64,000 nt of DNA from Spiribacter halobius (GTDB taxonomy: Bacteria > Pseudomonadota > Gammaproteobacteria > Nitrococcales > Nitrococcaceae). Below the pieces are notes generated by a model that was given only the letters and a program-made list of their open reading frames with translations, was not told the DNA's origin and did not search any database. The position numbers and the translations under genes are program-made. The stretch covers positions 3,162,001 through 3,226,000 of the forward strand of contig NZ_CP086615.1 in NCBI RefSeq assembly GCF_020883455.1, read 5' to 3'. Of this stretch, positions 8,067 to 58,599 are shown piece after piece (position 1 is the first letter of the stretch; every line of letters begins with the position of its first letter).

Positions 8067-8140
<74 letters not shown>

Positions 8141-12384: not shown

Positions 12385-12648
12385 ATGCCCGATAGCGTAG
12401 AGAATCTGCTGCTCGAACATCTGCGCGTCATCCGCTCGGACCTCTCCGCGATGAAGGAAGACCTTCGGGAGGTCAAGCAACGGATCACCAGCGTCGAATC
12501 AGGCGTCGCCGGCCTGCGTCGCGACAGCGCCCAGGTATACGCTGACACGGTGGATCAGCACGGCCGTTATGATCGGCTGCTGGAGCGTATCGAGCGCATC
12601 GAACGGCGCCTGGAGATCCAGGATGAAGCTCGGGGGCCAGGCCCCTAG
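12385..12648 (+). CDS. Small coiled-coil protein
   Basis: An 87-residue, highly charged protein beginning MPDSVENLLLEHLRVIRSD. Heptad-like patterns run through residues 5-45 (LSAMKEDLREVKQRITSVE) and 60-82 (YDRLLERIERIERRLEI), which predicts a coiled coil. There is no signal or membrane segment. Similar small coiled-coil proteins are widespread in proteobacteria with no assigned function. It is transcribed away from the MBL nuclease gene, the start is the first ATG of the frame, and no strong ribosome site is visible. Confidence 0.65.
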   Translation: MPDSVENLLLEHLRVIRSDLSAMKEDLREVKQRITSVESGVAGLRRDSAQVYADTVDQHGRYDRLLERIERIERRLEIQDEARGPGP

Positions 12649-12677
12649 GGTATTCTGGTGCCTGCCGTGGCGGCCCC

Positions 12678-13742: not shown

Positions 13743-14809
13743 CACTCGAACTCCTCCCCGAAGCTCTCCACCAGCGCCTTCAGCGCCTGCCCGGCACGGA
13801 TGAGATCCCGCAGCGCATCCTCGTCCCGCGGCTGGAAGTCCTCGAAGGCCTCCTCCAGGCGCTCCGCATGTCCGCGCAGGGTGCGTGCGAAGAACCGCTC
13901 CGAGGCCGCCTCCGTCTCCGCCTTGCGGGGACGGAACCGGAACAGCAGCCGGAACAGCGGCAGGTGCACCTTGGGGTTGAGCAGGTAGTGGCCGATGGCG
14001 TGGGTGTTGGCGCGGGTGACGGAGGTCAGCTCCGCCAGCGTGTAGGCCTTGCGGAAGACCAGATGCGATACCCAGCGGCCGTTGTCCGTCGGGTCGAAGG
14101 GCCGCACCCGCGCCACCGGGTCCAGGCGATGCCGGTACTCGAGGAACTCCGCCGTGCAGCCCCGCTCACCCGGGCGCACCGGCGAGGCCTTCACGTCGAT
14201 GAAGCTCTGCAGCACGCGGCTGACGTTCGCGACCATGTGCACGCTGCCGAGGCGGTGGGTCGTCGGGCTCAGACTGTGCTGGCTGCCGTCGGGGCCCACC
14301 ATCTGTTCGGGGCCGTAGGCCTTGGCGAGGGTGTCGTGGACCACGGCCGTGCCGAGCGAGTGCCCGAGCACGTGGACGTTGGCCGAACCGTGCTCGGCGA
14401 TCGTGCGCGCCAGCGCCTCGGCGAGCCGCAGCCGAACACGCTCGCTGAGGATCGTGAAGCGATACAGCAGCACATCCAGCCAGTGCGTGCGGAAGAAGCT
14501 GTCGTCGGTGATCTCCGACTCCAGCGCGTTGATCCGCGCCGCCACGCTGGAGGCGATGGGCAGGGTCCCGGCAATGGCCGCCATGCGCTCGGCCAGCGGC
14601 TGCGCCCGCTCCGCAAGCTCGGCCCGGAACTCCTCGAAGATGTCGTTATAGCCGACGGGGACGATGTCGAAGCGCCCGGTGACGTCCTCATCCCGCAGCG
14701 AGTCGTACAGCCCGCCCGCCTCCCGGCAGGCATCTCGCACCTCGTCCCGGAACGAGTCCGCCGTGTGCTGCCCCATCCCGTGGACGATGATCAACTGCTG
14801 CCTTGCCAT
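13742..14809 (-). CDS. Alpha/beta hydrolase, lipase-like
   Basis: A 355-residue cytoplasmic-looking hydrolase. It starts MARQQLIIVHGMGQHTADSF, where HGMGQ forms the oxyanion-side loop. The nucleophile elbow VLGHSLGTAVVHD (Ser near residue 149) is followed by a long C-terminal part ending in a helical LEEAFEDFQPRDED region. No signal peptide is present. It forms a one-base-overlap pair with the exported protein downstream, and another lipase-like gene is divergent at 15052. Substrate is unknown. Confidence 0.8.
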   Translation of the reverse strand: MARQQLIIVHGMGQHTADSFRDEVRDACREAGGLYDSLRDEDVTGRFDIVPVGYNDIFEEFRAELAERAQPLAERMAAIAGTLPIASSVAARINALESEITDDSFFRTHWLDVLLYRFTILSERVRLRLAEALARTIAEHGSANVHVLGHSLGTAVVHDTLAKAYGPEQMVGPDGSQHSLSPTTHRLGSVHMVANVSRVLQSFIDVKASPVRPGERGCTAEFLEYRHRLDPVARVRPFDPTDNGRWVSHLVFRKAYTLAELTSVTRANTHAIGHYLLNPKVHLPLFRLLFRFRPRKAETEAASERFFARTLRGHAERLEEAFEDFQPRDEDALRDLIRAGQALKALVESFGEEFE

Positions 14810-14902
14810 CCTTCCCCCAACAGCCGCGGAATCCCTTCATCCCTCGCCGGATTAGATAGACCATCCAGCCCGGTTTGGATACCCGAAATGCCCGGGTTAG
14901 AA

Positions 14903-14917
14903 GCGGTCTCCGACCGC
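14903..14917. repeat. REP-like palindrome copy
   Basis: An exact GCGGTCTCCGACCGC, the same as at 9881-9895, in the divergent spacer between two hydrolase genes. Confidence 0.7.
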
Positions 14918-15051
14918 GATGGCGCGCACAGCGCGCCAACAGCAGCCTGGAAACCTGGCAAAACACCCCTGCCTGATCTTTCCTTCAGAGACCGTCAGCG
15001 CAACGAGATCCAGCCAACACGGCCTTACCTCCAGCAAGGACAGGCACCCCG

Positions 15052-16119
15052 ATGAGCGACTACTTCGTCTGCGACATCGACCTCGATAGACCGCCCACCC
15101 GCCGGGCCGCCTACTCCGACCGCACCGCATGGCTCCTCGCCGAGCTGTCACGCCTGGTCTACGAACCGCTCCCGGGCAGCGAGCTCCCCTCCGACCTCCT
15201 GCCGCGGCTGCGCGCGGCCATCGCCGACGACGCCGACGACACCGAGCTGACGCGCCTGCTGCACGACGCCCTGGCCGCCCGACGCCCGGCGAGCTCCCCG
15301 CTCGACCCGGCCCTGGCCCGCGCCCATCTCGAGCTGCTGGACATCTTCACCGAGGGCGGCACGGAGGGCATGATCCTCCGCTTTCCCCCCGTCGAGGACT
15401 TCGACGGCATGCTCGTGGTGGTATTCCGCGGCACGCAGCCCTCCATCGCCGACGTCGCCACCGACCTCAAGGCCAACATGGTGGCCGCCCCCGGCGGCGG
15501 CCGCGTCCACGCCGGTTTTCTCGAAGCCTTCGAGCGGGTGCGGGAACCGATCCGCCACGCGCTGGCGCAATACCCGGGACTGCCGGTGTATTTCAGCGGC
15601 CACTCCCTCGGCGGCGCCCTGGCGCTGGTCGCCACCCGCTACCTGCAGGCCGACAGCACCGGCGCGACCTACACCTACGGCTGTCCCCGCGTCGCCGACG
15701 ACGAGTTCTTCCGCCATCTGAAAACGCCCGTGTACCGCGTTGTCCACGGCGCCGACGGCGTCACGCGGATCCCGTTCGGCTACGGCCTGACGGTCCTGCT
15801 GGCGGGCATCCGGGTCATCCCGATCAACTTCACCTTCAACCTCAGCGAGTGGGTCCGCCGCCACCTCGGCGGCTACACCCACCACGGCCACCTGATCTAC
15901 CTCCGTCCGGGCCCGGCCCTCGCCCCCGATGGCAACGGGGAACCCCGCAAGGGCCTGGTCGGGCACAGCCCGAACATCATCTGGCGCGCCAAGGAGGTGA
16001 TCCAGCGGCTGCTTGCCACCGGCTTCCGCGCCCTGGCGTCGGACCACAGCATGAACCAGTACGCGCTGAAGCTCAGGGTGTACGCGGAGCACAGGAACCC
16101 GCGGAGCGGGTCATCCTGA
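15052..16119 (+). CDS. Lipase class 3 family hydrolase
   Basis: A 355-residue alpha/beta hydrolase of the Lipase_3 type. The early conserved strand VVFRGTQPSIADVATDLKAN (residues about 125-144) is followed by HAGFLEAFERV, the nucleophile elbow YFSGHSLGGALAL (Ser near 185), YTYGCPRVADDEF, VVHGADGVTRIPF, and a late DHSMNQY that can supply the catalytic His. No signal peptide is seen. A triacylglycerol, phospholipid or other ester substrate is possible. It is divergent from the 13742-14809 hydrolase. Confidence 0.87.
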   Translation: MSDYFVCDIDLDRPPTRRAAYSDRTAWLLAELSRLVYEPLPGSELPSDLLPRLRAAIADDADDTELTRLLHDALAARRPASSPLDPALARAHLELLDIFTEGGTEGMILRFPPVEDFDGMLVVVFRGTQPSIADVATDLKANMVAAPGGGRVHAGFLEAFERVREPIRHALAQYPGLPVYFSGHSLGGALALVATRYLQADSTGATYTYGCPRVADDEFFRHLKTPVYRVVHGADGVTRIPFGYGLTVLLAGIRVIPINFTFNLSEWVRRHLGGYTHHGHLIYLRPGPALAPDGNGEPRKGLVGHSPNIIWRAKEVIQRLLATGFRALASDHSMNQYALKLRVYAEHRNPRSGSS

Positions 16120-16248
16120 TCCACCAGGAAGCGCACGGGGGACAAGGCGCAGGTGAGCAGCGGAAGACATCAGACGCCGGCGGTGCACGAGATGGACGCT
16201 CTGTGCTATCACCAGGGGAACTCGGGTCAACAGGATCCCTTGCTATAC

Positions 16249-16545
16249 ATGAGACTCTCTCAGCCGGAACAAGACGCCATAATCGATCTCGCTCGAAAAC
16301 ACTTTGGCGATAGTGCCGAGGTCTGGCTGTTCGGGTCGCGCGTCGACAACGAGCGCCGCGGCGGCGACATCGACCTCTACGTGGAGACGGACCGCGACGA
16401 CATCCTGCGGGCTCGCGCCGCCTTCAAGGCAGCACTTGCCCGCAAACTCGGGGAGCAGCAAATCGACCTCATCGTTCGGCCACGGCAGCGCCCGCCCACC
16501 GCCTTCGAGCGCCATGTCTGCCACCAGGGCATCCGGCTGCAATGA
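16249..16545 (+). CDS. MNT-type nucleotidyltransferase (antitoxin of a HEPN pair)
   Basis: A 98-residue minimal nucleotidyltransferase. The motif GSRVDNERRGGDIDL gives the GS...DxD active site, followed by a third acidic strand (QQIDLIV). In HEPN/MNT type II systems this protein AMPylates or sequesters the HEPN RNase. ATG 16249 is the first codon that fits the family length. Its stop overlaps the next start as ATGA, so the pair is translationally coupled. Confidence 0.85.
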   Translation: MRLSQPEQDAIIDLARKHFGDSAEVWLFGSRVDNERRGGDIDLYVETDRDDILRARAAFKAALARKLGEQQIDLIVRPRQRPPTAFERHVCHQGIRLQ

Positions 16546-17060
16546 AATATGACGCCACTGCCGCGCAGATCTTCACGGAAGTATTCGCCGAAGCCGCGCG
16601 CTCGGCGCGAAACCTCGAATCGTCGCTTCGGCGCGGCAGGAGCCAGGGCTGGCTTCCGGTAGCCGAGGACGCCTCGCCGGAAGCATTCGACGAGGACACG
16701 AAGGACCACCTCGACGCATTTCGTGCCCGCTTCTGCGACCTGCAGGATGCCCTCGGCCGCAAGGTCTTTCGATCGCTGCTTTTCCTGGAACAGGAGGCAG
16801 CGAGCGAGGCCACGATGCTGGATGTGATCAACGCCATGGAAAAGCGCGGTCTGATCTCTGGCTTCGAGCGATGGAGCGAAGTCCGTGAGGTGCGAAACGC
16901 CCTTTCCCACGACTATCCGAAACAGAGCGTCGACCGGGTCACGGCTCTTAACCGGGCACTTGAACTCGCGCCGGAGCTACTGGATGCCCTGCAGCGCACC
17001 AGGCATTACGTTGAGAACCGCATCGGCCTCGAACTGCCAAAGCGGCAACCCCCATCGTAG
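16542..17060 (+). CDS. HEPN-domain protein (probable toxin)
   Basis: A 172-residue helical protein with the HEPN RNase motif RNALSHDY (Rx4H, near residues 118-125) after VREV. It directly follows and overlaps the MNT gene, the standard MntA/HepT-like order. It most likely acts as an RNase toxin that the nucleotidyltransferase neutralises. The fold and the tandem arrangement support this. Target RNA is unknown. Confidence 0.82.
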   Translation: MKYDATAAQIFTEVFAEAARSARNLESSLRRGRSQGWLPVAEDASPEAFDEDTKDHLDAFRARFCDLQDALGRKVFRSLLFLEQEAASEATMLDVINAMEKRGLISGFERWSEVREVRNALSHDYPKQSVDRVTALNRALELAPELLDALQRTRHYVENRIGLELPKRQPPS

Positions 17061-17434
17061 GTCGGGCGCGGTGAAGCCGCTGCGGGCTCCCTGCCTGCAA
17101 GACCCCCCCCCCTGAGTACTTTGCGAGCCGCCGTTTCACGACTGAGGGAAGCGCTTATATCAAGTCGCGTGGGCCTCTTTAAAGGTCCAGGAGATCTCGA
17201 ACGGACTTCAGCGGGCGCGGCAGACGCAATGGGTGGCCTGGCAGGGGCCGGGGCTCATCGCCGGCATGCGACGGCTGCTCGGCGGGCGTCAAGAGGGGGT
17301 CGGGCTATGAAGGGCGTTACCCGATTCCTTCAGGAGGCCGCCGCGCTAAATTATCCCGTCGGCGCGATCACGCGCAACCAGCATCCTGCCGGCGAGGCCG
17401 GCACCCCACCCACAGCGCCCAAGATAATGGTACG
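17061..17434. other. Intergenic region, no supported gene
   Basis: This stretch separates the HEPN gene from the convergent protease gene. It holds a 10-C homopolymer at 17103-17112 and no frame with recognisable similarity. I see no terminator with a clear T-run. Confidence 0.6.
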
Positions 17435-18202
17435 TCAGCGAATGCCGTCCAGCAGCGCCCGTATATACTGCGCCGGGACCGCGTAGGAGATACCGCTGGG
17501 GTCCTCCAGCACCCGCTCCTTGCTACCCTTCACGAAGACACTGTTAAGAAGGCCGACAACCTCGCCGGTCTCCGTGTCATAGACCGGACTGCCACTGTTC
17601 CCGGGATACGCGGTGGCATCAAGCTGAAACACTCGGAAAGGGCTGCGCAGGCGCCGGATGGCCTCCGCATCCAGCTCGCGGCCACGATTCGCCGGCGTAA
17701 TGATGGGGGTGATCGCGCTGACAATCCCCCGGTGCGTCACCGGATAAAGACCCAGAACCGCGCCGATGGGGAACCCGGTGAATGCGTACCCCTCGCCCTC
17801 GCGCACGCTGTCCGAGTCGCCGATCTGCAGAGCGGGCAGTGGTCGCCCATCGATCGCCAGCACAGCGATATCGTGCTCGGAGTCCGACCGGCGCAGCGTA
17901 GCCGGCCGCCACTCGAGCCGCTCCCCGCGCCGGAAGAAAATCGCGAGCTGTTCCCGGTTTTCCTCGTCCAGCACCGTCGGCAGCACGTGATCGGCCGTAA
18001 CCACATGGCGGCCTTCGAGCACGACAAAGCCGGTGCCGAGAAGCTGGGAGGGCGGCCGGCGAGTGGCCTGGTAGGTGCCGACGCCGACGATCGCCGGCTT
18101 GATCCGCTCGATGGTGTCGGGCAACTCCTGCGCCGACACCACCGGCACGAGCGCAAGGGCAGCCAGCAGGAGCGTCGCGGCCTGGCGAGGCAATCGCAGC
18201 AT
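17435..18202 (-). CDS. Periplasmic trypsin-like serine protease
   Basis: A 255-residue exported protease. The signal peptide MLRLPRQAATLLLAALALVP is cleaved near VVSA. The chymotrypsin-fold triad is visible: His in VVTADHVL, Asp in SEHDIAVLAI and Ser in YPGNSGSPVYD. There is no PDZ domain, so it is a short Do/Deg-like protease (S1C type). ATG 18202 has GGAG 7 nt upstream. It faces the HEPN gene and its own upstream region is shared with the divergent glycan locus. Confidence 0.88.
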   Translation of the reverse strand: MLRLPRQAATLLLAALALVPVVSAQELPDTIERIKPAIVGVGTYQATRRPPSQLLGTGFVVLEGRHVVTADHVLPTVLDEENREQLAIFFRRGERLEWRPATLRRSDSEHDIAVLAIDGRPLPALQIGDSDSVREGEGYAFTGFPIGAVLGLYPVTHRGIVSAITPIITPANRGRELDAEAIRRLRSPFRVFQLDATAYPGNSGSPVYDTETGEVVGLLNSVFVKGSKERVLEDPSGISYAVPAQYIRALLDGIR

Positions 18203-40637: not shown

Positions 40638-41003
40638 CTAGCGCTGCCCACCGAAGTAGTCCGCGAGGGCGTCGAGCTCCTCGGGGTGCGTGACAAGGTG
40701 CGCACGCACGTCGTCACGGACCTGCTTACGCACCCGTTCCCGATACGCATGGGACATCGTCTCATCGAGCCTTTTCTGCAGCGCCGCGAGCTCGGAGCGG
40801 GTAACGCGAATACTCTCGACCATCACCTCGAGTGCTGCCTCTGCGTCGCGATCCCGGCCGGAGTCCAAGTCGTAGGCCTCAATGGCACGGCGCACCACCT
40901 CTGACCCCGAAATCTTCTCCTGCTTACTGATCCGCCGCACCTTTTCCAAGTGCTCCGGCGCCAGAAGCCAGTGACGACGGCTAACACGCTCTCGGGCTGG
41001 CAT
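40638..41003 (-). CDS. Ribbon-helix-helix-like regulatory protein
   Basis: A 121-residue basic protein. Residues about 12-40 (LLAPEHLEKVRRISKQEKISGSEVVRRAIEAYD in parts) fit a CopG/MetJ ribbon-helix-helix: a strand, then helices with the SGSEVVRRAI turn. A charged helical tail follows (LAALQKRLDETMSHAYRERVRKQ). Such proteins are antitoxins, relaxosome accessory proteins or plasmid regulators. No toxin gene is adjacent. Context is a decayed mobile island. Confidence 0.65.
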   Translation of the reverse strand: MPARERVSRRHWLLAPEHLEKVRRISKQEKISGSEVVRRAIEAYDLDSGRDRDAEAALEVMVESIRVTRSELAALQKRLDETMSHAYRERVRKQVRDDVRAHLVTHPEELDALADYFGGQR

Positions 41004-41415
41004 GGGACCCTCGTCCGGCCGACGTTCGGCAACTTACGTCTCAACATTATAGGGCATGGCAAGCCGGCTCCCATCGCAATATGCGAGTCTGAACGTGCGT
41101 AAGCCGATGCTATCTCGGGAGAGTCGCAATGGTAGGCGTTCCCATTGCAGGGCCTATTGCCCAGAAGACGGGAAAGGGGTCGGGACTGCCGCACCACCAC
41201 GAAAGCCGTTTACTCGCATGCTCGTCGCCGAGGCACAAGCCGAGAGGCTGACCCCCCTTACCGCCACGGCCGCCCTCCCCAGATACGGCCTTCAAGGCCT
41301 GTCCGAGCCGCAGCGCTGGTCGTCGGCCGGATGCCGCGACGCCCCCCTTGGAGGGGTATCCGCGGGGCTGATCGCGGTCAGCGGATCTTCAACGCATGGT
41401 CTGAATACCCTGGTC
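41004..41415. other. Spacer, no toxin gene found
   Basis: This is where a RES-domain toxin would be expected downstream of the minus-strand MbcA/ParS-like antitoxin, but no frame shows the RES motifs. It may have been deleted or decayed. Confidence 0.5.
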
Positions 41416-41868
41416 TCAGGCGGCGACGCCGTGTTCGAGCCGACCGAGCAGTTGTTCGATGCAGCGAGCCCCTGCCTCATTTGTCAGGAGATCCGACGGC
41501 GCGTTGCCATCAAGCGCTGCATTCGCCCTTTGCAGCCAGGCGCTGCCGCGGTCGCGGTCCCCGAACGCCCGGGTTGCCAGAGCGTAGATGTGGGCAACAC
41601 GCACTGCTCGCTCCGACTGCAGAGTCGACAGCCTCGCGGAGGGAGCTTTTGACTGCAGCGTTGTCCTTGGCATCACGCACCTGTCGAACACGGATGCGCT
41701 CACCCGACTGCGCATCCGGGCAGCATGGCGCGCCGCCACCCCTTGCTCTGTCAGCCGGTGCAGCGCTGCCCAATCGCCCCACTGCAAAGCCACGAGCTCA
41801 CGGGACTCGAGGTCGCCGAGGTAGTATGCGAGTTCGGCACCAAGTTCAGATTGACTCTCCATCTTCAT
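41416..41868 (-). CDS. MbcA/ParS/Xre-type antitoxin (DUF2384)
   Basis: A 150-residue protein whose C-terminal half is the toxin-binding DUF2384 domain: RVAHIYALATRAFGD, WLQRANAALDGNAPSDLLTNEAGARC and QLLGRLEHGVAA. The N-terminal half (SELGAELAYYLGDLESREL) is less typical. ATG 41868 is the best start by length, with a weak ribosome site. The partner toxin of this family is RES or COOH-NAD-degrading, and it is not visible beside it, so this is probably an orphan antitoxin. Confidence 0.72.
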   Translation of the reverse strand: MKMESQSELGAELAYYLGDLESRELVALQWGDWAALHRLTEQGVAARHAARMRSRVSASVFDRCVMPRTTLQSKAPSARLSTLQSERAVRVAHIYALATRAFGDRDRGSAWLQRANAALDGNAPSDLLTNEAGARCIEQLLGRLEHGVAA

Positions 41869-42140
41869 CGCCCATTCGCTTTCCCCTTGGCTCGTAATGA
41901 CATTCAAGGGCGTCGCTGTGCCCACCAAGCTGGCCTCCAACCGCCATTGCTGCTCGCGCTGAAATCCGCACGGTCTCACGCTCAGGTTGAGCAGGTCCGG
42001 CCAGCCCCGCCTTCTTCCGCTTCTGTACTGCGCACTCGCGGGAGCGTGGATCAAGGTCCATCGAATTCCCCACCCACTGTTCTGGATAACGCCGTCCCGT
42101 TCCCCTGTCCATCCAGCCCTTTTTCAGACGGACAGTCCGG

Positions 42141-42944
42141 TCACTCCACGCGCAGGAGTCGGTGCGCATCGAACGCCTCGTTCTCCTCGAGGCCACCGTA
42201 ACCGCGAGCGTTGGAGACGACACGACAACCGCCAATCCGGGTATCGATCACCTCATGCGTATGCCCGTGAATCCAAAGCGCCGGCCGCGCACGCTCGATA
42301 AGCGCGGTGAGGTCCGAGCCGTAGCTGAATGAGATGGACGGCCCCCAGTCAGAGTACGGGTAATACGGCGCATGGTGGGTCACCACTACCGGCGTCTGCC
42401 CCAGATAGTGAGCGCGGGCGACTTCCTCTTCGATGTACGCCTTCGTCCGGACATGAATCGACATCAAGTCGCGCGGGTGGACTCGATACGCGTATGGGGC
42501 GTCCGGAGGGCCGGTGCGGATACGCCGGAAATCGCGCATCTGCGTCTTTGCGGCATCCATGGCCGTTGGGCTTCCCCGCCTGAAATCCGTCCAGAGTGTT
42601 GCCCCGATGATCCGCAGAGATCCTAACGTGACGGCACGCCGCTCCAAGACATGCACGTTCCCGACGCCAGCCGCTTTGACCCGATCGAGCAGCTTCCCGG
42701 GGAGTCTTGCGAGGGACTGCCCGTAGTACTCGTGGTTGCCCAGAACGAGCACCGCGGCATGAAAGTGTTCTGCAACCTTCAGCGCGAAATCACAGCTGCG
42801 CATGCCAACGTCGATGTCACCCGCCAGGACCAGCACGCGGTGCCTGTCGACGTCAGAGACGGGCAGCTGGAACGGGGTGTCCTTACGGTGCAGCCCCCGG
42901 CCGCTGACCTCCAGGTGAAGGTCGCTCACATAGCGGATTTCCAT
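42141..42944 (-). CDS. Calcineurin-like metallophosphoesterase
   Basis: A 267-residue phosphoesterase with all five metal motifs: DLHLE near residue 8, AGDID, LGNHEYYG, VVTHHAPYYPY and IHGHTHEV. It lacks a signal peptide and acts in the cytoplasm, on a phosphodiester or nucleotide substrate that cannot be fixed. It is the third gene of a compact minus-strand unit, 15 nt after the exonuclease stop. Confidence 0.9.
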   Translation of the reverse strand: MEIRYVSDLHLEVSGRGLHRKDTPFQLPVSDVDRHRVLVLAGDIDVGMRSCDFALKVAEHFHAAVLVLGNHEYYGQSLARLPGKLLDRVKAAGVGNVHVLERRAVTLGSLRIIGATLWTDFRRGSPTAMDAAKTQMRDFRRIRTGPPDAPYAYRVHPRDLMSIHVRTKAYIEEEVARAHYLGQTPVVVTHHAPYYPYSDWGPSISFSYGSDLTALIERARPALWIHGHTHEVIDTRIGGCRVVSNARGYGGLEENEAFDAHRLLRVE

Positions 42945-42959
42945 GGCCTTACTGCTCCC

Positions 42960-43475
42960 CTAGCGCTGACCTGCGCCCTGAGAGGCCAGTCGGTACGCCT
43001 CGAGAAGCGCACGTACGTCCGTCTCTGCCCGGTGCCGCTGTCCACCGATGCGCTGGTAGGCGGCCTCCTTGTAGCCCTCGAGCGCAGCCAGCGTTGTATC
43101 CGGAAACACCTCTATCGCCGGGGCGACGCGGAACTCCGGCAGCAGGCCAGCCGCTTCAAACAGCACATCTAGCCACCAGCCATCGAGCGCGGACGCATCG
43201 CTGTAGGCAACGCCCACCTGCCCCAGGGCGGCGTTCAACCGCAACGTGACGCGCTCCACGGACTCACCTTCACGCACCGCCAGTTCTCTGGGGATACCGT
43301 GAATCGCCTCGGCGTTGGCATCCCAGTGGGTCCAGTAATCAACCGGTGCGATCAGGCAGTCGGTAACCGACCCATCAGGCTTGCTCCACGCCACTTCCAC
43401 GGGATAGCTGTCCGGCGCAATTCCGGATGCCTCCACGTCGATGAAGCAAGGCAGCGGCGCTGGGTGCTCGGTCAT
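42960..43475 (-). CDS. DEDDh 3'-5' exonuclease
   Basis: A 171-residue exonuclease of the DnaQ/RNase T-like superfamily. Motif I is CFIDVEASGI, motif II includes YSDASALDGWWLDVLF, and motif III is the HRAETDVRAL block with the catalytic His and Asp. HGIP sits between. It could degrade DNA or RNA. It lies 23 nt after the VirD4-like ATPase and 15 nt before the phosphoesterase, so all three are probably one transcript. Confidence 0.85.
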   Translation of the reverse strand: MTEHPAPLPCFIDVEASGIAPDSYPVEVAWSKPDGSVTDCLIAPVDYWTHWDANAEAIHGIPRELAVREGESVERVTLRLNAALGQVGVAYSDASALDGWWLDVLFEAAGLLPEFRVAPAIEVFPDTTLAALEGYKEAAYQRIGGQRHRAETDVRALLEAYRLASQGAGQR

Positions 43476-43498
43476 TGCCCTTGGGCCTCCGCGTGAGC

Positions 43499-45550
43499 CT
43501 AACCAGGGTGATCTTCCCGATCCCGAATCATGCGCCCGCGGGGACCTTCGCGCTCCACACGCAGGAGGAGATCGCAGAAGCCGCGCACGATGAACACGAA
43601 CCAGTCCCAGTCATGTTGCTCGACGTCGACAGAGAGGCTCCTGGCGTACGAAATCCTCACGCCGGCCCGCCTACCAGGCTGATCGTCGTGGCGCTCCACA
43701 GACCACGGCGCCTCGGTGGTCGCTACTCCCCTGGCACCGCAATCGCGCTCCGCAAGGCCGGGCATCTCAACGAGGTCGACGGCCTCGCGAAAAGGCATGG
43801 TCAGTGACCAGGCACCGGATCCGCCCTCCCGTTTCGCTTCAAGATAAAGCGTGTCTCCGCGCCGCTCGAGTCGGACCTCCCGCTCACGTGCGTTATCGGG
43901 GAAATCGAGCGAGGCAGACATGAGACGGCGCCCTCGGCGCCCCCTGAGCAGATCGCGAAGCTCATCGACGCGGTAGTCGGCACCGCCGATGAGCCAGTTC
44001 GCCCAGGGTTCGATATCCCCGTGGCTCGGGCCAATCGGGTTGTCGAGCATGACCGTCGCCGGTGGCGCGAACCGGTCAGCGGCAACCTCTGGCAGCGGCT
44101 GGTGGAGGCCGGAGGCCATGTGCGGGTAACCCGCGGTCGCGCCCGCGCGCACTGTGGCGCACACCGGGCCACCGTGGCGCTCGAGATGGTGGGAGACGAC
44201 AACCGCCTGCCCCTGGCGCAGACGCACCCCGCACGCCTCCAGCACCGCCTCCCGGGCGGCAGGCCCGGCCTGCGCCTGCAGGTGAGCCAGGGTGTGGGGG
44301 TCGTGGGTGGAAAAGGCGATCGTGGTCCCGCAGTTCTGCAGCAGACTCTCTACCGTCGCCGGCGGGCAGCCGCCCGGTAGCCGCGCGGCGAGCGAGGCCA
44401 CCCCCTGCGTGGCGAGCAGGTTGATGTGCCCGCTCGAGCGCGAGCGGTCGAGCCATAGGTTGTCGTCTAGCAGCCCGGAACTCGCGCCGCCCGGCGCGAA
44501 GTGCACATGCTGCTGGTACTCGTCGATCGCAAGGAAGGTAAAGCGGTCCCGCCCCCAACCCTCGGCGCGATGGTGAGCGTAGCCGAGCACCGCCTCCCGG
44601 AGCCGGATCCGCAACAGCTCGTGCACCAGGGCAGCCGTAGCCCCGAATAGGTGCGCGGGCAGGTCGGTGACCACGACCTTCCGGGCCCGATAGAGCACCT
44701 GGGTCATATCGAGCGCCGGCGCCGCCGGATCAGCGAGCTTCGAGCGCAGTCGCTCGTCAGAGGCGAAGGGGTGCAGCGCAGGCAGCACGTGGTTAACGTG
44801 CCAGGCGTACTGCTTCCTCACTTCCTCGTCGAGCTTCCAGGAGGAACTGCCGTGTGCGTGCCGCGAGCCGCCAGCGGCGAGGATGCTGAATGCGTCAGCG
44901 CGCACGCCGTGGAGCAGGGAGAGGTAGTCCCGTGGCAGCGTCGGCTCGCCCTCGACCCAGGCATCGAAGCGCGCGACGAACGAACTCGGATGGCTCAGCG
45001 CATCATGCAGATCCGCGAGCGTGGTCGCCCGGCCCCAAAGCCGATAGGTCTGGTGGACGAGCAGCGCATAGTCGATGGCACGCGAGCCCCAATAGGAGTC
45101 GCGGGTCGCGCGAGTCCGGGTGAGGCGCTCAAGCAGCGCTCGCAGCGGCTCCACCGCCATGCCACCGATGAGGTTGACCGGGGTCGCCTCGCGAGACGCC
45201 CCGAGCAGCAGCGTGCGCTGCGGGTATTCCGCGGCGAGGCCGGCGTCTTCCTCCTTCGCGCTTAAGACCACGCCCGAGCAGCCGCTCTCGATGAGCCGCC
45301 GGAGCGCGGGCAGCATCACCGATACGGTCTTCCCGCTTCCCGTGGTTCCGGTGACTAGAACATTGCGGGTTGCGTCACCAAAGGTGAGCAGCACCTTGCC
45401 GCGTCCTGCGTTGGCGAGCCTTCGCAGGCCGCCATCGTCCTCGGCTGCCGTGGCCCATGCGCCGTGCAAGGGCTGATCGTCGAGTCCGCCGAAGGCAAGC
45501 AGCACCTTATCGCGAAGCATGATCGCCTCTCTCGCGGTAGATCGGATCAT
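43499..45550 (-). CDS. VirD4/TraD-like P-loop ATPase
   Basis: A 683-residue ATPase related to type IV coupling proteins. Walker A is VTGTTGSGKT (residues 66-75), with SAKEED and a Walker B FLAIDEYQQH near residue 335. ATQGVASLAARLPGG and ILSFSTHDPH-like blocks resemble the T4CP motor. No transmembrane segment precedes Walker A, unlike classical VirD4. ATG 45550 has AGGAG 5 nt upstream, and ATG 45520 also has a weaker site. It heads an operon with an exonuclease and a phosphoesterase, which is not a standard conjugation neighbourhood. Confidence 0.8.
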   Translation of the reverse strand: MIRSTAREAIMLRDKVLLAFGGLDDQPLHGAWATAAEDDGGLRRLANAGRGKVLLTFGDATRNVLVTGTTGSGKTVSVMLPALRRLIESGCSGVVLSAKEEDAGLAAEYPQRTLLLGASREATPVNLIGGMAVEPLRALLERLTRTRATRDSYWGSRAIDYALLVHQTYRLWGRATTLADLHDALSHPSSFVARFDAWVEGEPTLPRDYLSLLHGVRADAFSILAAGGSRHAHGSSSWKLDEEVRKQYAWHVNHVLPALHPFASDERLRSKLADPAAPALDMTQVLYRARKVVVTDLPAHLFGATAALVHELLRIRLREAVLGYAHHRAEGWGRDRFTFLAIDEYQQHVHFAPGGASSGLLDDNLWLDRSRSSGHINLLATQGVASLAARLPGGCPPATVESLLQNCGTTIAFSTHDPHTLAHLQAQAGPAAREAVLEACGVRLRQGQAVVVSHHLERHGGPVCATVRAGATAGYPHMASGLHQPLPEVAADRFAPPATVMLDNPIGPSHGDIEPWANWLIGGADYRVDELRDLLRGRRGRRLMSASLDFPDNAREREVRLERRGDTLYLEAKREGGSGAWSLTMPFREAVDLVEMPGLAERDCGARGVATTEAPWSVERHDDQPGRRAGVRISYARSLSVDVEQHDWDWFVFIVRGFCDLLLRVEREGPRGRMIRDREDHPG

Positions 45551-45698
45551 GCCGGCTCCTTCGTCCAGAGCTGGACCGTGCGGGCATGATCCTGACCAGG
45601 GATAGGGGAGTGGGCGCGGACGCCCGGCACCGCCCCGGGGACCGCGACCGGCCCGACGCGGGGACCTTCGTCCGAGCGCGCGCCGGGGCGTCCGTGGT

Positions 45699-45827
45699 CT
45701 AGGCGATCGAGGCTATTCGACGGCCCCGGTTGGCGCCGTCGCGCGGGGTAGCGCAGCAGTGCCCGGCCTCGGCGGGGGGCCGGCGGGAGAGGTCGAGCGG
45801 AGGTGCTTGATGGATCAGGTAGCGCAT
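45699..45827 (-). CDS. Possible 42-residue peptide
   Basis: An open frame on the minus strand (MRYLIHQAPPLDLSRRP...) lies about 150 nt upstream of the ATPase gene. There is no motif, a weak ribosome site and no recognised family. It is recorded because it precedes the operon and could be a leader peptide or a shadow. Confidence 0.22.
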   Translation of the reverse strand: MRYLIHQAPPLDLSRRPPAEAGHCCATPRDGANRGRRIASIA

Positions 45828-46329
45828 GTCTGCTTCCGGCTGATGCCAGCTAGATGGTGACTCATCGCGGTTGGCGGTTAACGGGGCGCGCGTTGCCGCC
45901 GTGCGGTAACGGGCTTTAATGCCCGCGTATGCGCAGTGCGCCGGAGCTGGCGTTTGGAAGCAGGCGGGGAAAGGTACTCACGGGGCTACTCTGATCTGAT
46001 GTGCTCGTAAGACGCTGACGCAGCAAGCCACATCGCGAAGGGCGTTGTCAACGCCTCAGCTTTTGGCTGGCTTTCATCGCCAGCCGATCGGCGCACGGCT
46101 GAACCCGGCGATCTACGCGATTTCGGTGCGCCACTTCGCGACCTCGGATGCATCGACGGCCAGATCGGCATCAGGTCCGGGCACCTCATGAGCGCCAACG
46201 GCGCATCTGAGGCCGTACCGCGTCCCGTCGGGCTCCAGCGGACGCCCTCGAACGGCCGATCTCGAAGCCTGCTGTGCGGCCAGCGCCTTGCCCGGCGGCT
46301 AGACAACCAGGCCGCCGGCAAGTTCGGGC
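45828..46329. other. Region without a supported gene
   Basis: Nothing recognisable is seen. The frames are Arg/Ala-rich shadows. It separates the ATPase operon from the transposase remains. Confidence 0.5.
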
Positions 46330-46600: not shown

Positions 46601-46741
46601 CGTGTTGAACACCTGTTGTGGCTGAGGCCCCCTCCCATTTCAGTTGGGAAAAACAGCGCGCTGCCCGCAAGCACTCGGAAGTCGCGATAGATGGGGTTCT
46701 CTGGCGCGCATTCACGCCTGCCGGTTGGGGGAGGCAGGCGC

Positions 46742-47093
46742 GGCATTACACAAACGCGGGGGGGTTACACTCCCTTTCCCCTGCCGCGATCCCCTTCAGT
46801 GGCGCCGCGCTCGTGGCGGTCATGCCTTCCGCCAGTGATTGGGTCGTAACCAACTGACTTGAAAGCGATTTCTCGGCGCCCACGGCGTGTCTCGCATGGA
46901 GGGGGGTGGATACGTGTGAGCGCACCGAGAGCGCCGCGCGCCGGCGAGCCACCCCTGTGATCGAGAGCCGTGCCCTGCCTTGACGGCATCGAGGGGCTGG
47001 TGCGCACTGAGGCCGCAAGTGTCTGGCCCGGTTTCCAAACTTTTCCACCCACAGCGATCATGCCGCGTGTAACCCCAGCGTTTGTGTAATGCC
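46742..47093. mobile_element. 352-bp MITE-like element
   Basis: The left end GGCATTACACAAACGC (46742-46757) continues as a 7-G run and TTACAC. The right end (47067-47093) is the reverse complement, with TGGGG in place of the G run. No gene lies between. A dead IS1595-type transposase is just to the right and its far end also carries GTGTAACCC, so that element may once have moved this one. No clear target duplication is visible. Confidence 0.72.
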
Positions 47094-47164
47094 GGGAGTC
47101 CGCCTGCGTCACGTGGTGTCATCCGCGCGGTGCCCCCGGTGGGTCACTTATCCTCTGCGGACTG

Positions 47165-49686: not shown

Positions 49687-49707
49687 AGGCGAAGACAAGG
49701 AGCGGTG

Positions 49708-51021
49708 ATGACCAAGGGCAATGCACGTCGAATGCTCTGGCAAGCTGTAATGACGCCAGCACAGTTCGAGCGCCTCGATTCGTCACGAGATCCGAGCGAG
49801 CCCGGTGTTCTCGCGACCCGGGAGGTGCTTGTCGAGGGGCACGACGTGGCCGTGGCCGCCGAGCGCCATGGCGTCAGCCCGCAGACCATCCACGAGCACA
49901 TGCAACGAATCATCGGCAACGGGATGGAGGCGCAGGCAACACTCACCGTTCGATTTCAGTGCGCGGGGCGCGACCCGATCGCCTTTGCCGAGGCCCTTGG
50001 CTGCGATCCCGCGGACATCAGGTGGTACCCGCCGACCGCCCTCGCGGATGCCGTCCGGTTGATGCGCGCCTGTGCCGAGGCAAGCCATCTGGTCTGGCCG
50101 GACCTGCGCAGCACCCTCTCGCTGCTCCCCGGAGCCGAGAAGTTCACCCCGCAGCTTGCCCGCTTCTTCGCCGAGGCCCCCGCTGACTACAGAGCGCGCT
50201 GCGAAAAGCTCATCGCCGCGCACGGCAAGCGCACCGGGCTCGTTGATATCGAGCTCGACGTGCCCGCCAGCCGCCATGGACAACTCGAAGCGATCGCGCA
50301 GCAAACGCCCGCCCCCTCGGAGTGCCGGGAGGAGACGCAGAGCACCGCGCTCTGGGAGATCACCACCCGCCTTCCCTATGCCCGCTCGCGGGCCACCCAG
50401 CGGGAGCTCTTCGACTTCTTTCGCAACGCCACCCGGGGGCGAGCAAGGGAGGGCACGCTCGCCATCACCGAACGGATCTTCGATGAGATCGGCATCGGTG
50501 AGATCGAGCAGGCCGCACCCGGGGTTGCCATCGCCCCCGAGGGTGTGGCGGCCTTCGCGCGCATGCTCATCCAGGAGTACCCGGCGCGCATCAACCGCAA
50601 GAGCTCCATACAGCCGATCTATCGCCGCGACGCCCTCGCGCGGGCACTCAACAGCTGCCGCCATGAGCTCGGACCGCGCCTTCGCAGCGCCCGCGGACGC
50701 GCGGCGCTGAAGCGGATCTACCTGGATGGCGTGCCACCGAACAGCGCCTTCTCCGACGCCGGCTTCGACTCCGTGCCCAGGCGCGATGTGCGCGCCCTGG
50801 GTGCGGCGCTGAAAGACGAGCAGGTCCATCTCCCGCTCCACTACCTCATTTCCGCAAGCGAGAAGCCGGCGCTTGAGGCCGCACTGAGAAAGTTCGGCGC
50901 TGAGCCGCTTACCCTCGAGACCGAGGCCGTCGCAGGCAGCCGCCGGGTCAACGCCCAGGCGATCCTCGGCATCCTGCATCAGCGGCGGGGGCCGCCCCCA
51001 CGCGTCAGCCCAGGCCCTTAA
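49708..51021 (+). CDS. KorA/TrfB-like HTH protein with large novel C-terminal region (copy 1)
   Basis: A 437-residue protein. Residues about 12-70 resemble the KorA/TrfB DNA-binding domain: MTPAQFERLD, VLATREVLVEGHDVAVAAERHGVSPQTIHEHMQRI. The middle (VRFQCAGRDPIAFAEALGCDP, DIRWYPPTALADAV, LVWPDLRSTLSLLPGAEKF) belongs to no family I know. A second HTH-like unit ends it (LKRIYLDGVPPNSAFSDAGF, about 335-365). AAGGAG lies 5 nt before ATG 49708, so the GTG one codon earlier is less likely. Copy 2 is at 56026-57285. Plasmid or island regulation is likely by the KorA link. Confidence 0.72.
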   Translation: MTKGNARRMLWQAVMTPAQFERLDSSRDPSEPGVLATREVLVEGHDVAVAAERHGVSPQTIHEHMQRIIGNGMEAQATLTVRFQCAGRDPIAFAEALGCDPADIRWYPPTALADAVRLMRACAEASHLVWPDLRSTLSLLPGAEKFTPQLARFFAEAPADYRARCEKLIAAHGKRTGLVDIELDVPASRHGQLEAIAQQTPAPSECREETQSTALWEITTRLPYARSRATQRELFDFFRNATRGRAREGTLAITERIFDEIGIGEIEQAAPGVAIAPEGVAAFARMLIQEYPARINRKSSIQPIYRRDALARALNSCRHELGPRLRSARGRAALKRIYLDGVPPNSAFSDAGFDSVPRRDVRALGAALKDEQVHLPLHYLISASEKPALEAALRKFGAEPLTLETEAVAGSRRVNAQAILGILHQRRGPPPRVSPGP

Positions 51022-52972: not shown

Positions 52973-54550
52973 TCAGGCAGCCTGACGGCGATGGTCGCCC
53001 AGCTCGGCGGCCAGGTTCCAGGGCAGCAGCGCGTCGATCTCCCGGATCGGATGCTCGGCGATGCGCTCGAGCACCGTACGCAGGTAGGCGAAGGGGTCGA
53101 GCCCATTGAGTCGGGCGCTGCCGATGAGGCTGTAGATCAGTGCGGCGCGCTCCCCGCCGTGGTCGGAGCCCATGAACAGGTAGTTCTTGCGCCCGAGGGC
53201 GACCGTGCGCAGCGCCCGCTCGGCGGCGTTGTTGTCGATCTCAAGCCGCCCGTCGCCGAGGTAGCGCGCAAGCGCCTCCCAGCGGCCAAGGGCATAGCCC
53301 GCTGCCGCGGCGAGCGCGGATTTTGCCGAGAGCGTGCGCAGGATCTCCTCGAGCCAGGTTCTGAGCCCGGCAACGAGCGGGCCGGCGCGGGCCTCGCGGG
53401 CAGCGCGGCGCACCTCGGCCGGGCGGCCACGGATCTCGGCCTCCAGCGCGTAGAGCGCGCCGATGCGCGCGAGCGCCTCGCGCGCGAGCGGCGAGTCGGT
53501 GGCCGCGGCCACGTCGTGGAACTTGCGGCGCACGTGCGCCCAGCACGCCGCCTCCTCGATGCGCCCGCTGGCGTACAGCGCCCCGAAGCCGGCATAGCCG
53601 TCGGCCTGGAGCGTGCCGCGGTAGCCGGCCAGGTGGCGCTGGGGGTGGATGCCCTTGCGGTCGGCGCTGTAGCGGAAGACCACCGCGGGGGCGGCCGCGC
53701 CGCCCCAGCCGCGCTCCTCGCGCACGTAGGTCCACAGGCGCGCGGTGCGCGTGCGCCCGCGCCCGGGATCGAGCACCGGCACCGGCGTGTCGTCGGCGTG
53801 CAGGCTCGCGCCACCGAGGACGTGGCGCTCCAGCGCCTCGCCGAGCGGGGCGAGCAGCGCGCTCGCCGCGCCCACCCAGTCGGCGAGCGTGGAGCGCTCG
53901 ATGGCAACGCCCTCGCGGGCATAGATCTGCGCCTGGCGGTAGAGCGGCAGGTGATCGCAGTACTTCGCCACGAGCACGTGGGCGAGCAGCCCCGGGCCGG
54001 CGAGCCCTCGGGCGATGGGCCGCTCCGCAGCCGGCGCCTGCACCACCGCCGCGCAGGCGCGGCAGCGCTGCTTGGGGCGCACGTGGCGGATCACCCGGAA
54101 GGAGGCCGGTACGTACTCGAGCACCTCCGAGACGTCCTCACCGAAGGTGACCAGCACCCCGCCGCAGCTCGGGCAGGCGCAGGGGCCCTCATGGCGCTGG
54201 GTCTCACGCGGCAGGTGCGCCGGCAGCGCCCGCGGGGTGCGCGGCGCGCTCTGCCGTGCCGGCTTGGTGGCAGGGGGAGCCGCCACCGCTTCCCCGGCCG
54301 GCTCCCCGCCAAGCGCCTCGATGGCGAGCTCGAGCTGCGCGATCTGCGCCTGCAGCCGCTCCGAGGAGCGCCCGAACTGCATCCGGCGCAGCTTCGCGAG
54401 CTGCAGGCGCAGCCGCTCGAGCTCCTCGGCCTGGCGGCGCACCGTCGCCTGCGAGGCGGCAAGCTCCGCGCGGCTCGCGAGCAGCAGCTCGCGCAGCGCC
54501 GCGGCGTCGACGGGCAGGGCGTCAGGCGGATGGGGAGTGGTGGATTGCAC
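52973..54550 (-). CDS. tnpC: IS66 transposase TnpC
   Basis: A 525-residue DDE transposase. The N-terminus is a leucine-zipper-like helix region (RRQAEELERLRLQLAKLRRMQFGR). A CxxC zinc-binding part follows (CACPSCGG...RCRACAAVVQAP), then the catalytic core with SLHADDTPVPVLDPGRG, LQADGYAGFGALYASG and the C-terminal GRKNYLFMGSDHGGERAALIYSLIGSARLNGLDP. It is intact and belongs to the complete element. A much older copy of the gene is broken at 55770-57660. Confidence 0.95.
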   Translation of the reverse strand: MQSTTPHPPDALPVDAAALRELLLASRAELAASQATVRRQAEELERLRLQLAKLRRMQFGRSSERLQAQIAQLELAIEALGGEPAGEAVAAPPATKPARQSAPRTPRALPAHLPRETQRHEGPCACPSCGGVLVTFGEDVSEVLEYVPASFRVIRHVRPKQRCRACAAVVQAPAAERPIARGLAGPGLLAHVLVAKYCDHLPLYRQAQIYAREGVAIERSTLADWVGAASALLAPLGEALERHVLGGASLHADDTPVPVLDPGRGRTRTARLWTYVREERGWGGAAAPAVVFRYSADRKGIHPQRHLAGYRGTLQADGYAGFGALYASGRIEEAACWAHVRRKFHDVAAATDSPLAREALARIGALYALEAEIRGRPAEVRRAAREARAGPLVAGLRTWLEEILRTLSAKSALAAAAGYALGRWEALARYLGDGRLEIDNNAAERALRTVALGRKNYLFMGSDHGGERAALIYSLIGSARLNGLDPFAYLRTVLERIAEHPIREIDALLPWNLAAELGDHRRQAA

Positions 54551-54601
54551 CGGCTAATTATACCCGGGCAGATCGGCCAAGTCGCTCTTTTTCGGATCGA
54601 T

Positions 54602-54949
54602 TCAGGCCGCGCATTGCGGGTCGAAGGTGCGCTGCGGGAGGCGCCAGTCGATGCCCTCGAGCAGCATCGAGAGCTGTGCGGCGGTGAGGTGCACCGCCCC
54701 CTCGCGCACCTGCGGCCAGATGAACCGGCCCCGCTCGAGGCGCTTGGCATAGAGGCACAGCCCCTGGCCGTCCCACCAGAGCACCTTGATCCGATCCCCG
54801 CGCCGGCCGCGGAAGACGAACAGCTGCCCCGAGAAGGCGTTCTTCGCCAGCGCCTGCTGCACCAGCGCCGCGAGCCCGTCGAAGCCCTTGCGCATGTCGG
54901 TCACGCCGGCCACCAGGTAGATGCGCACCCCCGAGGGCAGCGCGATCAT
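54602..54949 (-). CDS. tnpB: IS66 accessory protein TnpB
   Basis: A 115-residue IS66 Orf2 protein: MIALPSGVRIYLVAGVTDMRKGFDGLAALVQ, then FVFRGRRGDRIKVLWWDGQGLCLYAKRLERGRF, both typical. It overlaps tnpA by 4 nt and is required for transposition in this family. Confidence 0.94.
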   Translation of the reverse strand: MIALPSGVRIYLVAGVTDMRKGFDGLAALVQQALAKNAFSGQLFVFRGRRGDRIKVLWWDGQGLCLYAKRLERGRFIWPQVREGAVHLTAAQLSMLLEGIDWRLPQRTFDPQCAA

Positions 54950-55362
54950 CGCCCGAGCACCTCGAGCGCGACGCGCAGGGCCGCGGCGTCCGCCGCGCCG
55001 CGCACCACCAGGCGGTGGCCGGCGGCGAGCACGATCTCCAGGCTGCCCGACGGCGCCGCGCTCTTCACCTCCGGCGGCACCGGCGGCGGCTCGGAGGCGG
55101 CCAGGCGCACCGGCAGCAGGCTCAGCGCCGAACCCTCACTCGGCGCCCCAAGTTCCCCGAGGCGGTAGAGCCGGCGCCAGCGGAAGAGCTGGTTGGCGTT
55201 GACGTCGTGGCGGCGCGCGACCACCGAGACCGAGTCCGGGCCCTCGAGGCTCTCCTCAACGAGGCGGCGCTTGTATTCAATGCTGAAGCGCCGCCGGCGC
55301 TGGCGGCTCAGCGTCTGATCCCCATCGATGGTGTCCACCTCGCCTCCAAGTGGGCACCTCAC
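54946..55362 (-). CDS. tnpA: IS66 accessory protein TnpA
   Basis: A 138-residue IS66 Orf1 protein with an HTH of the IS3-OrfA type (RRRFSIEYKRRLVEESLEGPDSVSVVARRHDVNANQLFRWRRLY in parts). The true start may be GTG 55338 (VDTIDGDQTLS), which has GGAGG close upstream. The longer ATG 55362 start adds eight residues. Expression is probably low, as for other IS66 orf1 genes. Confidence 0.92.
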   Translation of the reverse strand: MRCPLGGEVDTIDGDQTLSRQRRRRFSIEYKRRLVEESLEGPDSVSVVARRHDVNANQLFRWRRLYRLGELGAPSEGSALSLLPVRLAASEPPPVPPEVKSAAPSGSLEIVLAAGHRLVVRGAADAAALRVALEVLGR

Positions 55363-55769: not shown

Positions 55770-56062
55770 CCCGGCACCATCATGGCGTCAACGTCTGCCA
55801 AAGCCGCGGCGCCGTGCTCGTCGCCTTCGGCGACGACATCTCCGCGGCGATTGAGTACGTGCCGGCCGCCTTCCGGCTGATCAGCCACAGCGCCCCCAAC
55901 CTGCGCTGCGGCACCTGCGCAACGGCCGTGCAGACACCGTCCGCGGGTCCGGCGGCACGGGGCCGCTTGCCCCCGCCCTCATCGCAAAGCAGTGCGATCA
56001 TCTGCTGCAATAAGCCGAGAAGCGGCTATACGCGCACCGGCATCGAGATCGAACGCTCCACG
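55770..56062 (+). pseudogene. Old IS66 tnpC, N-terminal remnant
   Basis: The plus strand reads AVLVAFGDDISAAIEYVPAAFRLISHSAPNLRCGTCATAVQTP, matching the zinc-ribbon region of the intact TnpC, and ends at GIEIERST. The KorA-like gene (minus strand) begins its 3' end inside this remnant. Confidence 0.78.
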
Positions 56063-57285
56063 CCGCTCTCGGCGGCGACCGCGAGGGGCTCGGCGCCGAG
56101 CTCGCTCAGCGCGGCCTCGAGGGCGGGCTTCACCTCGGCCGAGGTGAGGTAGTGCAGCGAGATGTATTTACCCTCCGGGGCAAGCCCATGACGAAGGTGG
56201 TAGAGATCACGCGCCGGCACCGAGTTGAAGCCGGCCTCGCGAAAGGCGCTGTTCGGGGGCACGCCATCAAGGTAGATCCGCTTCACTGCCACGCGCCCGG
56301 GGGCGCTGCGAAGGCGTGGACCGAGCTTACCGCGGCAGGCATTGAGGGCCCGGGCAAGCGCCTCACGGCGGTAGACCGGGCGCATGTAGTGCTCGCGGCT
56401 GATGCGGGCCGGGTACTCCTGGATGAGCATGCGCGCGAAGGCCGCCACTCCCTCGGGCGCACGGGCTACCCCCGGCGTGGCGTGCTCGAGTATCCCAACG
56501 CCGACCTCGCGGAAAATCCGCTCGGTGATGGCGCGGGCGCCCTCGCTCGGCCGCCCGCGGGTAGGATTGCGGAAGAGATCTAAGAGCTCGCGCTGCGTCG
56601 CGCGCGAGCGCGCGTAGGGCAACCACGCGGTGATCTCCCAGAGAGCGTTGTGCTCGACATCCTCGGGGCACTCGGGGGCAATGGGCGTCTGCGCTGCGAT
56701 CTCCTCAAGCCGCTCATAGTCGGCAGCCGGCAGGGGCAGCTCGATATCGACGAGCCCGGTGCGCGCACCAAGCTCGGCGAGGAGCTCCTGGCAGCTCGCC
56801 CGGTAGGCTGCGGGGGATTCGCCAAAGAAGCGGGCAAGCGTCAGGGTGAACTCCTCGGCGCCGGGCAGCAGGGAGAGGGCGCTGCGCAGATCCGGCCACA
56901 CGAGATCGTTGGCCGCCGCGCACGAGCGCATGAGGCCGATGGCATCGGCGAGCGCGGCGGGCGGGTACCACCTGATCTCACTGGGGTCACAACCAAGCGC
57001 CTCGGCAAAGGCCACCGGGTCGCGGCCGACGCACTGAAAGCGTACGGTGATCGTCTCCCCAACCTTTGCCGCACGCGCGAGGATCCCTTTCAGGCGCTTG
57101 TGTACAGTGCCTCGGCTGATCCCATGATTCTCGGCGGCGACGCTAACGCCGTCGCCCTCGACGAGCACCTCCCGGGTGGCCAGAACACCGGGCTGATTCG
57201 GATCCCGCGCCGACTCGTAGCGCTCAAACTGGTCCTGCGTGAGTACCGGGCGCCCCAGCATCCGGCGTGCACGATCCTGCCCCAT
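56026..57285 (-). CDS. KorA/TrfB-like HTH protein (copy 2)
   Basis: A 419-residue paralogue of the protein at 49708-51021, with roughly 70% identical residues over the middle (VRFQCVGRDPVAFAEALGCDP, EIRWYPPAALADA, LVWPDLRSALSLLPGAEEF). The N-terminal HTH region is LTQDQFERYESARDPNQPG, VLATREVLVEGDGVSVAAENHGISRGTVHKRL. ATG 57285 has GGAG 5 nt upstream. The last ten residues (ERSISMPVRV) are read from the antisense strand of an IS66 remnant, so the C-terminus is replaced. The gene is nested within the old tnpC. Confidence 0.72.
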   Translation of the reverse strand: MGQDRARRMLGRPVLTQDQFERYESARDPNQPGVLATREVLVEGDGVSVAAENHGISRGTVHKRLKGILARAAKVGETITVRFQCVGRDPVAFAEALGCDPSEIRWYPPAALADAIGLMRSCAAANDLVWPDLRSALSLLPGAEEFTLTLARFFGESPAAYRASCQELLAELGARTGLVDIELPLPAADYERLEEIAAQTPIAPECPEDVEHNALWEITAWLPYARSRATQRELLDLFRNPTRGRPSEGARAITERIFREVGVGILEHATPGVARAPEGVAAFARMLIQEYPARISREHYMRPVYRREALARALNACRGKLGPRLRSAPGRVAVKRIYLDGVPPNSAFREAGFNSVPARDLYHLRHGLAPEGKYISLHYLTSAEVKPALEAALSELGAEPLAVAAESGVERSISMPVRV

Positions 57286-57384
57286 GGTCGCTCCAGATTC
57301 TTTGCCTTTCAGTCGTCGAAGCGTGCGATCTGACGCGCACATCTTTAGCATCGACTGACAAACCCGTTTCTTGAGCACTGGCGG

Positions 57385-57699: not shown

Positions 57700-57900
57700 C
57701 CCGGCAATCATTGAAACGCTGATCGAGGAGGACGGGGAGATCAGCATCGGCCAGCTTGCGGTCCGGTCGGTGTCATCGCCATCGCCAATGATGAGTTCAG
57801 CACCCCGGCCATCCTCCGGCCCCGCCGCGGAGTGGGCCCCAGCGAGCTGCTGCGCGGCGCGACGGTGCGAGCCACCGGCTCTGTTCTGACTAGCGGTTGA
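57700..57900 (+). pseudogene. Remnant of the small IS66-linked gene
   Basis: TLIEEDGEISIGQL is followed, after a frame shift, by GVIAIANDEFSTPAILRPRRG, matching the intact small protein (LIEEDGQITVGHL, VVAIANDEHNALAMLRRRRG). It completes the order tnpC-small gene of the old element. Confidence 0.7.
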
Positions 57901-58599
57901 TGAGCATGGCAGAGCCAGTGGTGGCGCGGCATCCGCTAGGCACTGCCTTGTGCCCAGACAAACCGCGGCACATCAGTGCTCTCGGCGTAGGCCTACCGAC
58001 CCATCAACCCCTAATCAGAACAGAGCCGAGCCACCTGCCACTCGCTTGCAGAACGCAAGCGCATCGACTCAAGCAATAGACCACGCGAGGATTCCGCATT
58101 TGCCTATCGCTCGGCCACTGCATGGGGCGCCCGTCGCGCGCATACAGCAGCCGGTGAGAGATTTGAGCGCAAGGGAGCGGCGGGATGGGTATTGAGGAGG
58201 TACCGCCAGGCCGCGGGGATTTTCGATTCGAAAATCGGATGCCCTGTCGGAAGAAGCGATCGACTCCGCCAACTGCGGTGCGCCGGGCACGCGTGCTCCG
58301 CTCCCCCGCCCCTCGAGAGGCGGCCATAGGCGAGCGACAGCGTGCACCGTGCCGCGCTTTGCAGCTCGGATCTCGTGGGGTACCAAATCTCTCACAATTG
58401 GGGGCACCCGGGCCAGGGATGGCGCCCAGCGTGGTAAAGGGGGGCACGGTCACGGCCTGGGTCCGGGAACCAGGTTCGGGCCGGGGAAAGAGCCGGTGCA
58501 GTCGCAGGGGGGGCACTTGGCTCGCATCCGCCTGGGCTCAACGGACAACACGGAAAGGTGAGAGATTTGGGCAACCGATCAACGGATCCGCCGCCCGGC
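57901..58599. other. Spacer with three GTGAGAGATTTG repeats
   Basis: No gene is recognised. GTGAGAGATTTG occurs at 58154-58165, CCAAATCTCTCAC at 58383-58395 and GTGAGAGATTTGG at 58558-58570. Pairs are inverted and could be ends of small IS-like segments. Confidence 0.5.

Follow-up and report, generated by a model that had tools for sequence, protein, structure and literature searches.

On balance, two paralogous genes in the window (the whole 64,000-nucleotide stretch of DNA that was analysed) probably encode plasmid-derived repressors with two KorA-type DNA-binding units per chain, at residues ~13–98 and 303–398. KorA-family repressors are well-known global regulators of plasmids and have been described as small homodimers. 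The two proteins, P0001 and P0002, are the only copies in their own genome. Their features, in window coordinates, were as follows.

49708..51021, plus strand: P0001, 437 aa, with a KorA-like N-terminus and a probable KorA-like C-terminus
49690..49707, plus strand: ribosome-binding site region of P0001, AAGGAGCGGTG, preceding the ATG at 49708 (from sequence)
49813..49917, plus strand: N-terminal KorA-type helix-turn-helix (HTH) of P0001, residues 36–70 (KorA profile, 27.8 bits; Pfam KORA; PDB matches)
49939..50001, plus strand: putative strand–helix after the first HTH, P0001 residues 78–98 (pattern and spacing only)
50011..50607, plus strand: middle region of P0001, residues 102–300, of no known family
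50614..50901, plus strand: probable C-terminal KorA-like unit of P0001, residues 303–398 (AlphaFold2 model of residues 296–410; PDB matches)
50689..50817, plus strand: predicted C-terminal trihelical HTH of P0001, residues 328–370, including RIYLDGVPPNSAF (AlphaFold2 model)
ATG at 57285 down to 56026, minus strand: P0002, paralogue of P0001, 419 aa
57076..57180, minus strand: N-terminal KorA-type HTH of P0002, residues 36–70 (KorA profile, 25.3 bits)
56092..56379, minus strand: probable C-terminal KorA-like unit of P0002, residues 303–398 (second sequence in the folded alignment)

The ATG of P0001 is preceded by AAGGAG and is a good start site. P0001 and P0002 shared 66% identity over 407 aligned residues. 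A sequence-only reading of this DNA had placed a paralogue at 56026–57285 with roughly 70% identity in the middle; it is indeed present, on the minus strand, with 71% identity over residues 201–290. Substitutions between the two genes numbered 98, 71 and 161 at codon positions 1, 2 and 3, respectively, and the GC content of their frame increased at third positions. Estimates of dN/dS were 0.24/0.71 (NG86) and 0.21/1.66 (YN00), a ratio of ~0.13–0.34. Judged from these comparisons, both are real coding genes and the pair is under purifying selection.

The pair lies in inverted orientation (inverted repeats at 49699–50787 and 56206–57294, 70–77% matching) and is separated by an IS66-type element at 52973–55362, with an IS3-type remnant and toxin–antitoxin genes nearby. 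Homology between the two ends at about the gene starts, and by eye the two upstream regions are dissimilar. Elsewhere in the island, a RES/Xre-type antitoxin gene (41416–42054, minus strand) is one of several addiction-type genes. Near-perfect pairs of short inverted repeats bracket 310 bases at 46741–47094 (22 nt, 95%) and 99 bases at 57876–58028 (27 nt, 93%), like small non-autonomous IS elements. A 3.2-kb stretch at 42880–46059, comprising a gene for a 683-aa DUF87/VirD4-like ATPase and the first part of the adjoining gene region, also occurs at ~3,664,800–3,667,900 of contig G000:C1 with ~90% identity.

We assessed the N-terminal domain of both proteins, and of the distant relative P0003, against KorA in several ways. 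Whole-protein scores for Pfam KORA (PF16509) were 19.3 (P0001), 12.7 (P0002) and 23.4 bits (P0003), all below the gathering cut-off of 26.7, although KORA was the best Pfam family for the whole of P0001. The isolated N-terminal domain of P0001 matched KORA with E 1.2e-4, approximately thirtyfold ahead of the next HTH family. As generic HTHs scored comparably on KORA in a genome-wide search, we used 16 KorA-like proteins, mostly plasmid-borne, to build an independent profile, with 2281 unrelated fragments from the P0003 contig (G037:C3) as controls. The N-termini scored 27.8 (P0001), 25.3 (P0002) and 29.5 bits (P0003) against 12.6 bits for the best control. Thus, the KorA/TrfB fit claimed in the sequence-only reading is clear by this profile despite the sub-cut-off Pfam score, and we regard the N-terminal assignment, which is one of sequence similarity, as firm. 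The best PDB matches of a profile of P0001, P0002 and P0003 were ArdK and KorA chains (E 3e-4 to 7e-3), and a KorA-type trihelical HTH with the LVxG motif was found at the N-termini of all three proteins. The putative strand–helix at residues 78–98 was 86% conserved between the paralogues and occupies a position like that of KorA's dimerisation domain. Its spacing is matched at residues 374–398; the KorA profile stops short of this element, and the models are weak there.

The C-terminal unit of P0001 and P0002 is supported, though not proved, by structure prediction. The sequence-only reading had held that a C-terminal segment repeats the spacing of the N-terminal HTH. At the level of sequence this came close to noise: in ungapped comparison with the N-terminal HTH, RIYLDGVPPNSAF fell outside the top matches and did not exceed shuffled sequences, and the C-termini of both proteins scored about −1 bit with the KorA profile, which is noise level. 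A weak gapped signal (p 0.01–0.03) rested on GR.A.KRIYLDG, ahead of the turn. At the level of fold, the claim fared better. When residues 296–410 (115 residues) were folded alone with AlphaFold2 from the P0001 and P0002 sequences, with no KorA sequence and no template, the segment came out as a trihelical HTH with helices at 328–339, 344–350 and 358–369. The model was of moderate confidence (pLDDT 60 overall and about 70–80 in the HTH). In a Foldseek search of 350,542 PDB chains with this model, the top ten were all KorA chains. These are non-independent matches, and they were weak (E 0.2–1.7, best E 0.23; best probability 0.85); for 5clv_E, TMt was 0.66 and rmsd 3.2. The specificity of the predicted fold for KorA is nevertheless notable. 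A search against viral models gave nothing useful, and a full-length AlphaFold2 model from the two sequences was useless (pLDDT 35).

Divergence between the paralogues showed a matching pattern at both ends. Among the 12-residue windows of the pair, conservation was lowest in 63–74 and 365–376, which cover the last part of the recognition helix plus the linker at the respective termini, and conservation of helices 1–2 was 77% and 80% at the two ends. Random window pairs were equally low in 0.4% of draws (p ~0.004), for a pattern that was noticed post hoc, after the model, and in linkers, which vary in any case. Taken with the predicted fold, this supports a second HTH-like end in P0001 and P0002 with moderate confidence.

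P0003 (420 aa) comes from a different genus and a different family of the same order. Whole-genome searches detected such a long relative in this one genome; the remaining matches were to generic HTHs or to short proteins resembling KorA. Homology of P0003 to P0001 and P0002 was detectable at ~residues 25–150 only. With the KorA profile, its C-terminal HTH reached 15.8 bits, more than any of the unrelated controls; compared ungapped with the N-terminal HTH of the same protein, it scored 43, where shuffled sequences had a mean maximum of 11. By sequence, P0003 clearly carries KorA-type HTHs at both ends. Since the same layout appears in P0003 by sequence and in P0001 and P0002 by predicted fold, having such an HTH at each end seems to be characteristic of the family. 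By eye, additional KorA units appeared possible in the middle of P0001 (~228–290) and P0003 (~239–325); these were rejected, as the KorA profile gave noise.

On the 513-kb contig that encodes P0003 lie an array of 35 tRNA genes with a tmRNA and genes for DNA polymerase III alpha and a secretion ATPase. It also has a second DNA ligase gene; contig C4 has the other copy. Based on this gene content, the contig is probably a megaplasmid. The tRNA and tmRNA genes lie at 3379–17476 of locus L055, ~14 kb from the P0003 gene. Beside that gene, two large related proteins are encoded at 10640–13621 and 15042–17450 of locus L004; their N-termini resemble GHKL/rIIA-type ATPases by eye, and Pfam gave no match for them at E 1e-4. 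Homologues of four adjacent window genes (40638–43475) are scattered on the 513-kb contig.

The middle region matched nothing in Pfam, NCBIfam, PHROGs, PADLOC or PDB, and no replication or transposase family was matched, in agreement with the sequence-only reading, which had called the middle unknown. Searches of genome contigs, viral contigs, plasmids and phages with P0001, P0003 or their alignment yielded no relatives. KorA proteins above the Pfam cut-off in 369 genomes were short frames of 99–149 aa, and one 296-aa match above the cut-off resembles a sigma factor. A 129-aa KorA-like protein in locus L006 (G159:C3) may be a two-headed case in miniature, as its C-terminal end, too, resembles an HTH by eye. 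Among described proteins, we found none that has two KorA units; one paper that mentions a 'KORA domain' appears to concern partition proteins. No known family was found to have the two-headed KorA layout, and the genome searches and profile scores support the proposal of an undescribed small regulator family with a KorA/TrfB-like N-terminus and a family-less middle. A more far-reaching reading is that of a new family of single-chain tandem KorA repressors, formed by duplication of the KorA fold at both ends, found on megaplasmids and in chromosomal remnants within one gammaproteobacterial order and acting as a pseudo-dimer or a DNA bridge; we consider the chances of this evenly balanced.

In the two-unit reading, each unit would be laid out as in KorA (helix 1, trihelical HTH, then strand–helix), and ~200 residues of no known fold would connect the two. 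KorA and ArdK are dimers in which trihelical HTHs are tethered to a strand–helix dimerisation domain; the target of KorA is an inverted repeat, and that of ArdK is a direct repeat, read by rotating one HTH (PMC9723621). Following this precedent, we propose that such a chain would, most simply as an intramolecular pseudo-dimer, read a bipartite, possibly asymmetric operator. With both heads on such an operator, the protein would repress its own promoter and the genes of its own element, and P0001 and P0002 may now read different operators.

Three other readings were weighed against this one. It is rather unlikely that the N-terminus alone is of KorA type, with the remainder having an effector role or mediating oligomerisation or partner binding and its C-terminal helices forming an unrelated helical bundle. 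That reading would explain why the C-termini of P0001 and P0002 have no HTH at sequence level and why detectable homology with P0003 is so limited, but it does not sit well with KorA being specifically what the C-terminal model matches best in the PDB, with a C-terminal KorA-type HTH seen by sequence in P0003, or with divergence that peaks at the predicted recognition helices of both ends. Two DNA-binding-type ends ~200 residues apart would suit a protein for DNA bridging or for partition and stability, as proposed in the sequence-only reading, with heads on separate sites that loop or pair DNA. The neighbouring genes examined included no parA (incC)- or korB-type partner, and repression on one operator is the precedent in the KorA family (PMC9723621). 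Bridging of two sites is possible, requires extra assumptions and strikes us as quite improbable; a pseudo-dimer that closes on a single bipartite operator accounts for the anatomy no less well than looping or partitioning.

It is very improbable indeed that the protein is a replication initiator or a transposase carrying an N-terminal HTH. Insertion sequences flank the genes, and other HTH models, including those of transposases, scored weakly on the N-terminus; against this, Pfam, NCBIfam, PHROGs and PDB revealed no Rep, transposase or nuclease domain, and a search for inverted repeats found no short terminal pair bracketing the gene. If the preferred reading, that of two KorA-type units in one chain, is true, a natural two-headed KorA would show how a symmetric dimer becomes an asymmetric two-site reader. 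A single chain would let the specificities for the two half-sites evolve separately, and the divergence of the paralogues suggests that this may have occurred. The collections searched contain very few members of the family, which limits its general importance.

Compared with known systems, P0001 and P0002 share features with several plasmid proteins. KlcB of IncP plasmids (401 aa in R751) is of similar size and reuses the KorA dimerisation domain (22.7 bits), but the KorA HTH was not detected in it, and a relationship was rejected (hhalign probability 0.1%, E 0.42). KfrA-type proteins are likewise long plasmid proteins whose DNA-binding domain is N-terminal; R751 KfrA gave noise against the P0001/P0002 profile, and this relationship was also rejected. 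The RK2-type KorA operator, which we take to be GTTTAGCTAAAC, was absent at up to 2 mismatches and no operator was found for P0001 or P0002, whose specificity may differ from that of RK2 KorA. Among PDB sequences, the family profile matched ArdK of IncW/IncN plasmids (7BBQ, 7BCA, 7BCB) best (E 3e-4); unlike P0001 and P0002, ArdK is ~100 aa long and dimeric, with one HTH per chain. With KorA/TrfB of IncP plasmids (RK2, R751, pKJK5), P0001 and P0002 have in common the N-terminal trihelical HTH, the (R/A)xVLVxG motif, the preceding helix and, putatively, the strand–helix pattern after the HTH. KorA/TrfB consists of one unit of ~100 aa, whereas P0001 and P0002 have 419–437 aa, a family-less middle and a probable second unit at the C-terminus; KorA/TrfB genes adjoin parA (incC) and korB, whereas the neighbours of P0001 and P0002 are IS and toxin–antitoxin genes. 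By size, Pfam cut-off and gene neighbourhood, the two proteins are outside KorA proper; by sequence similarity, they resemble KorA-family DNA binders, at least at the N-terminus.
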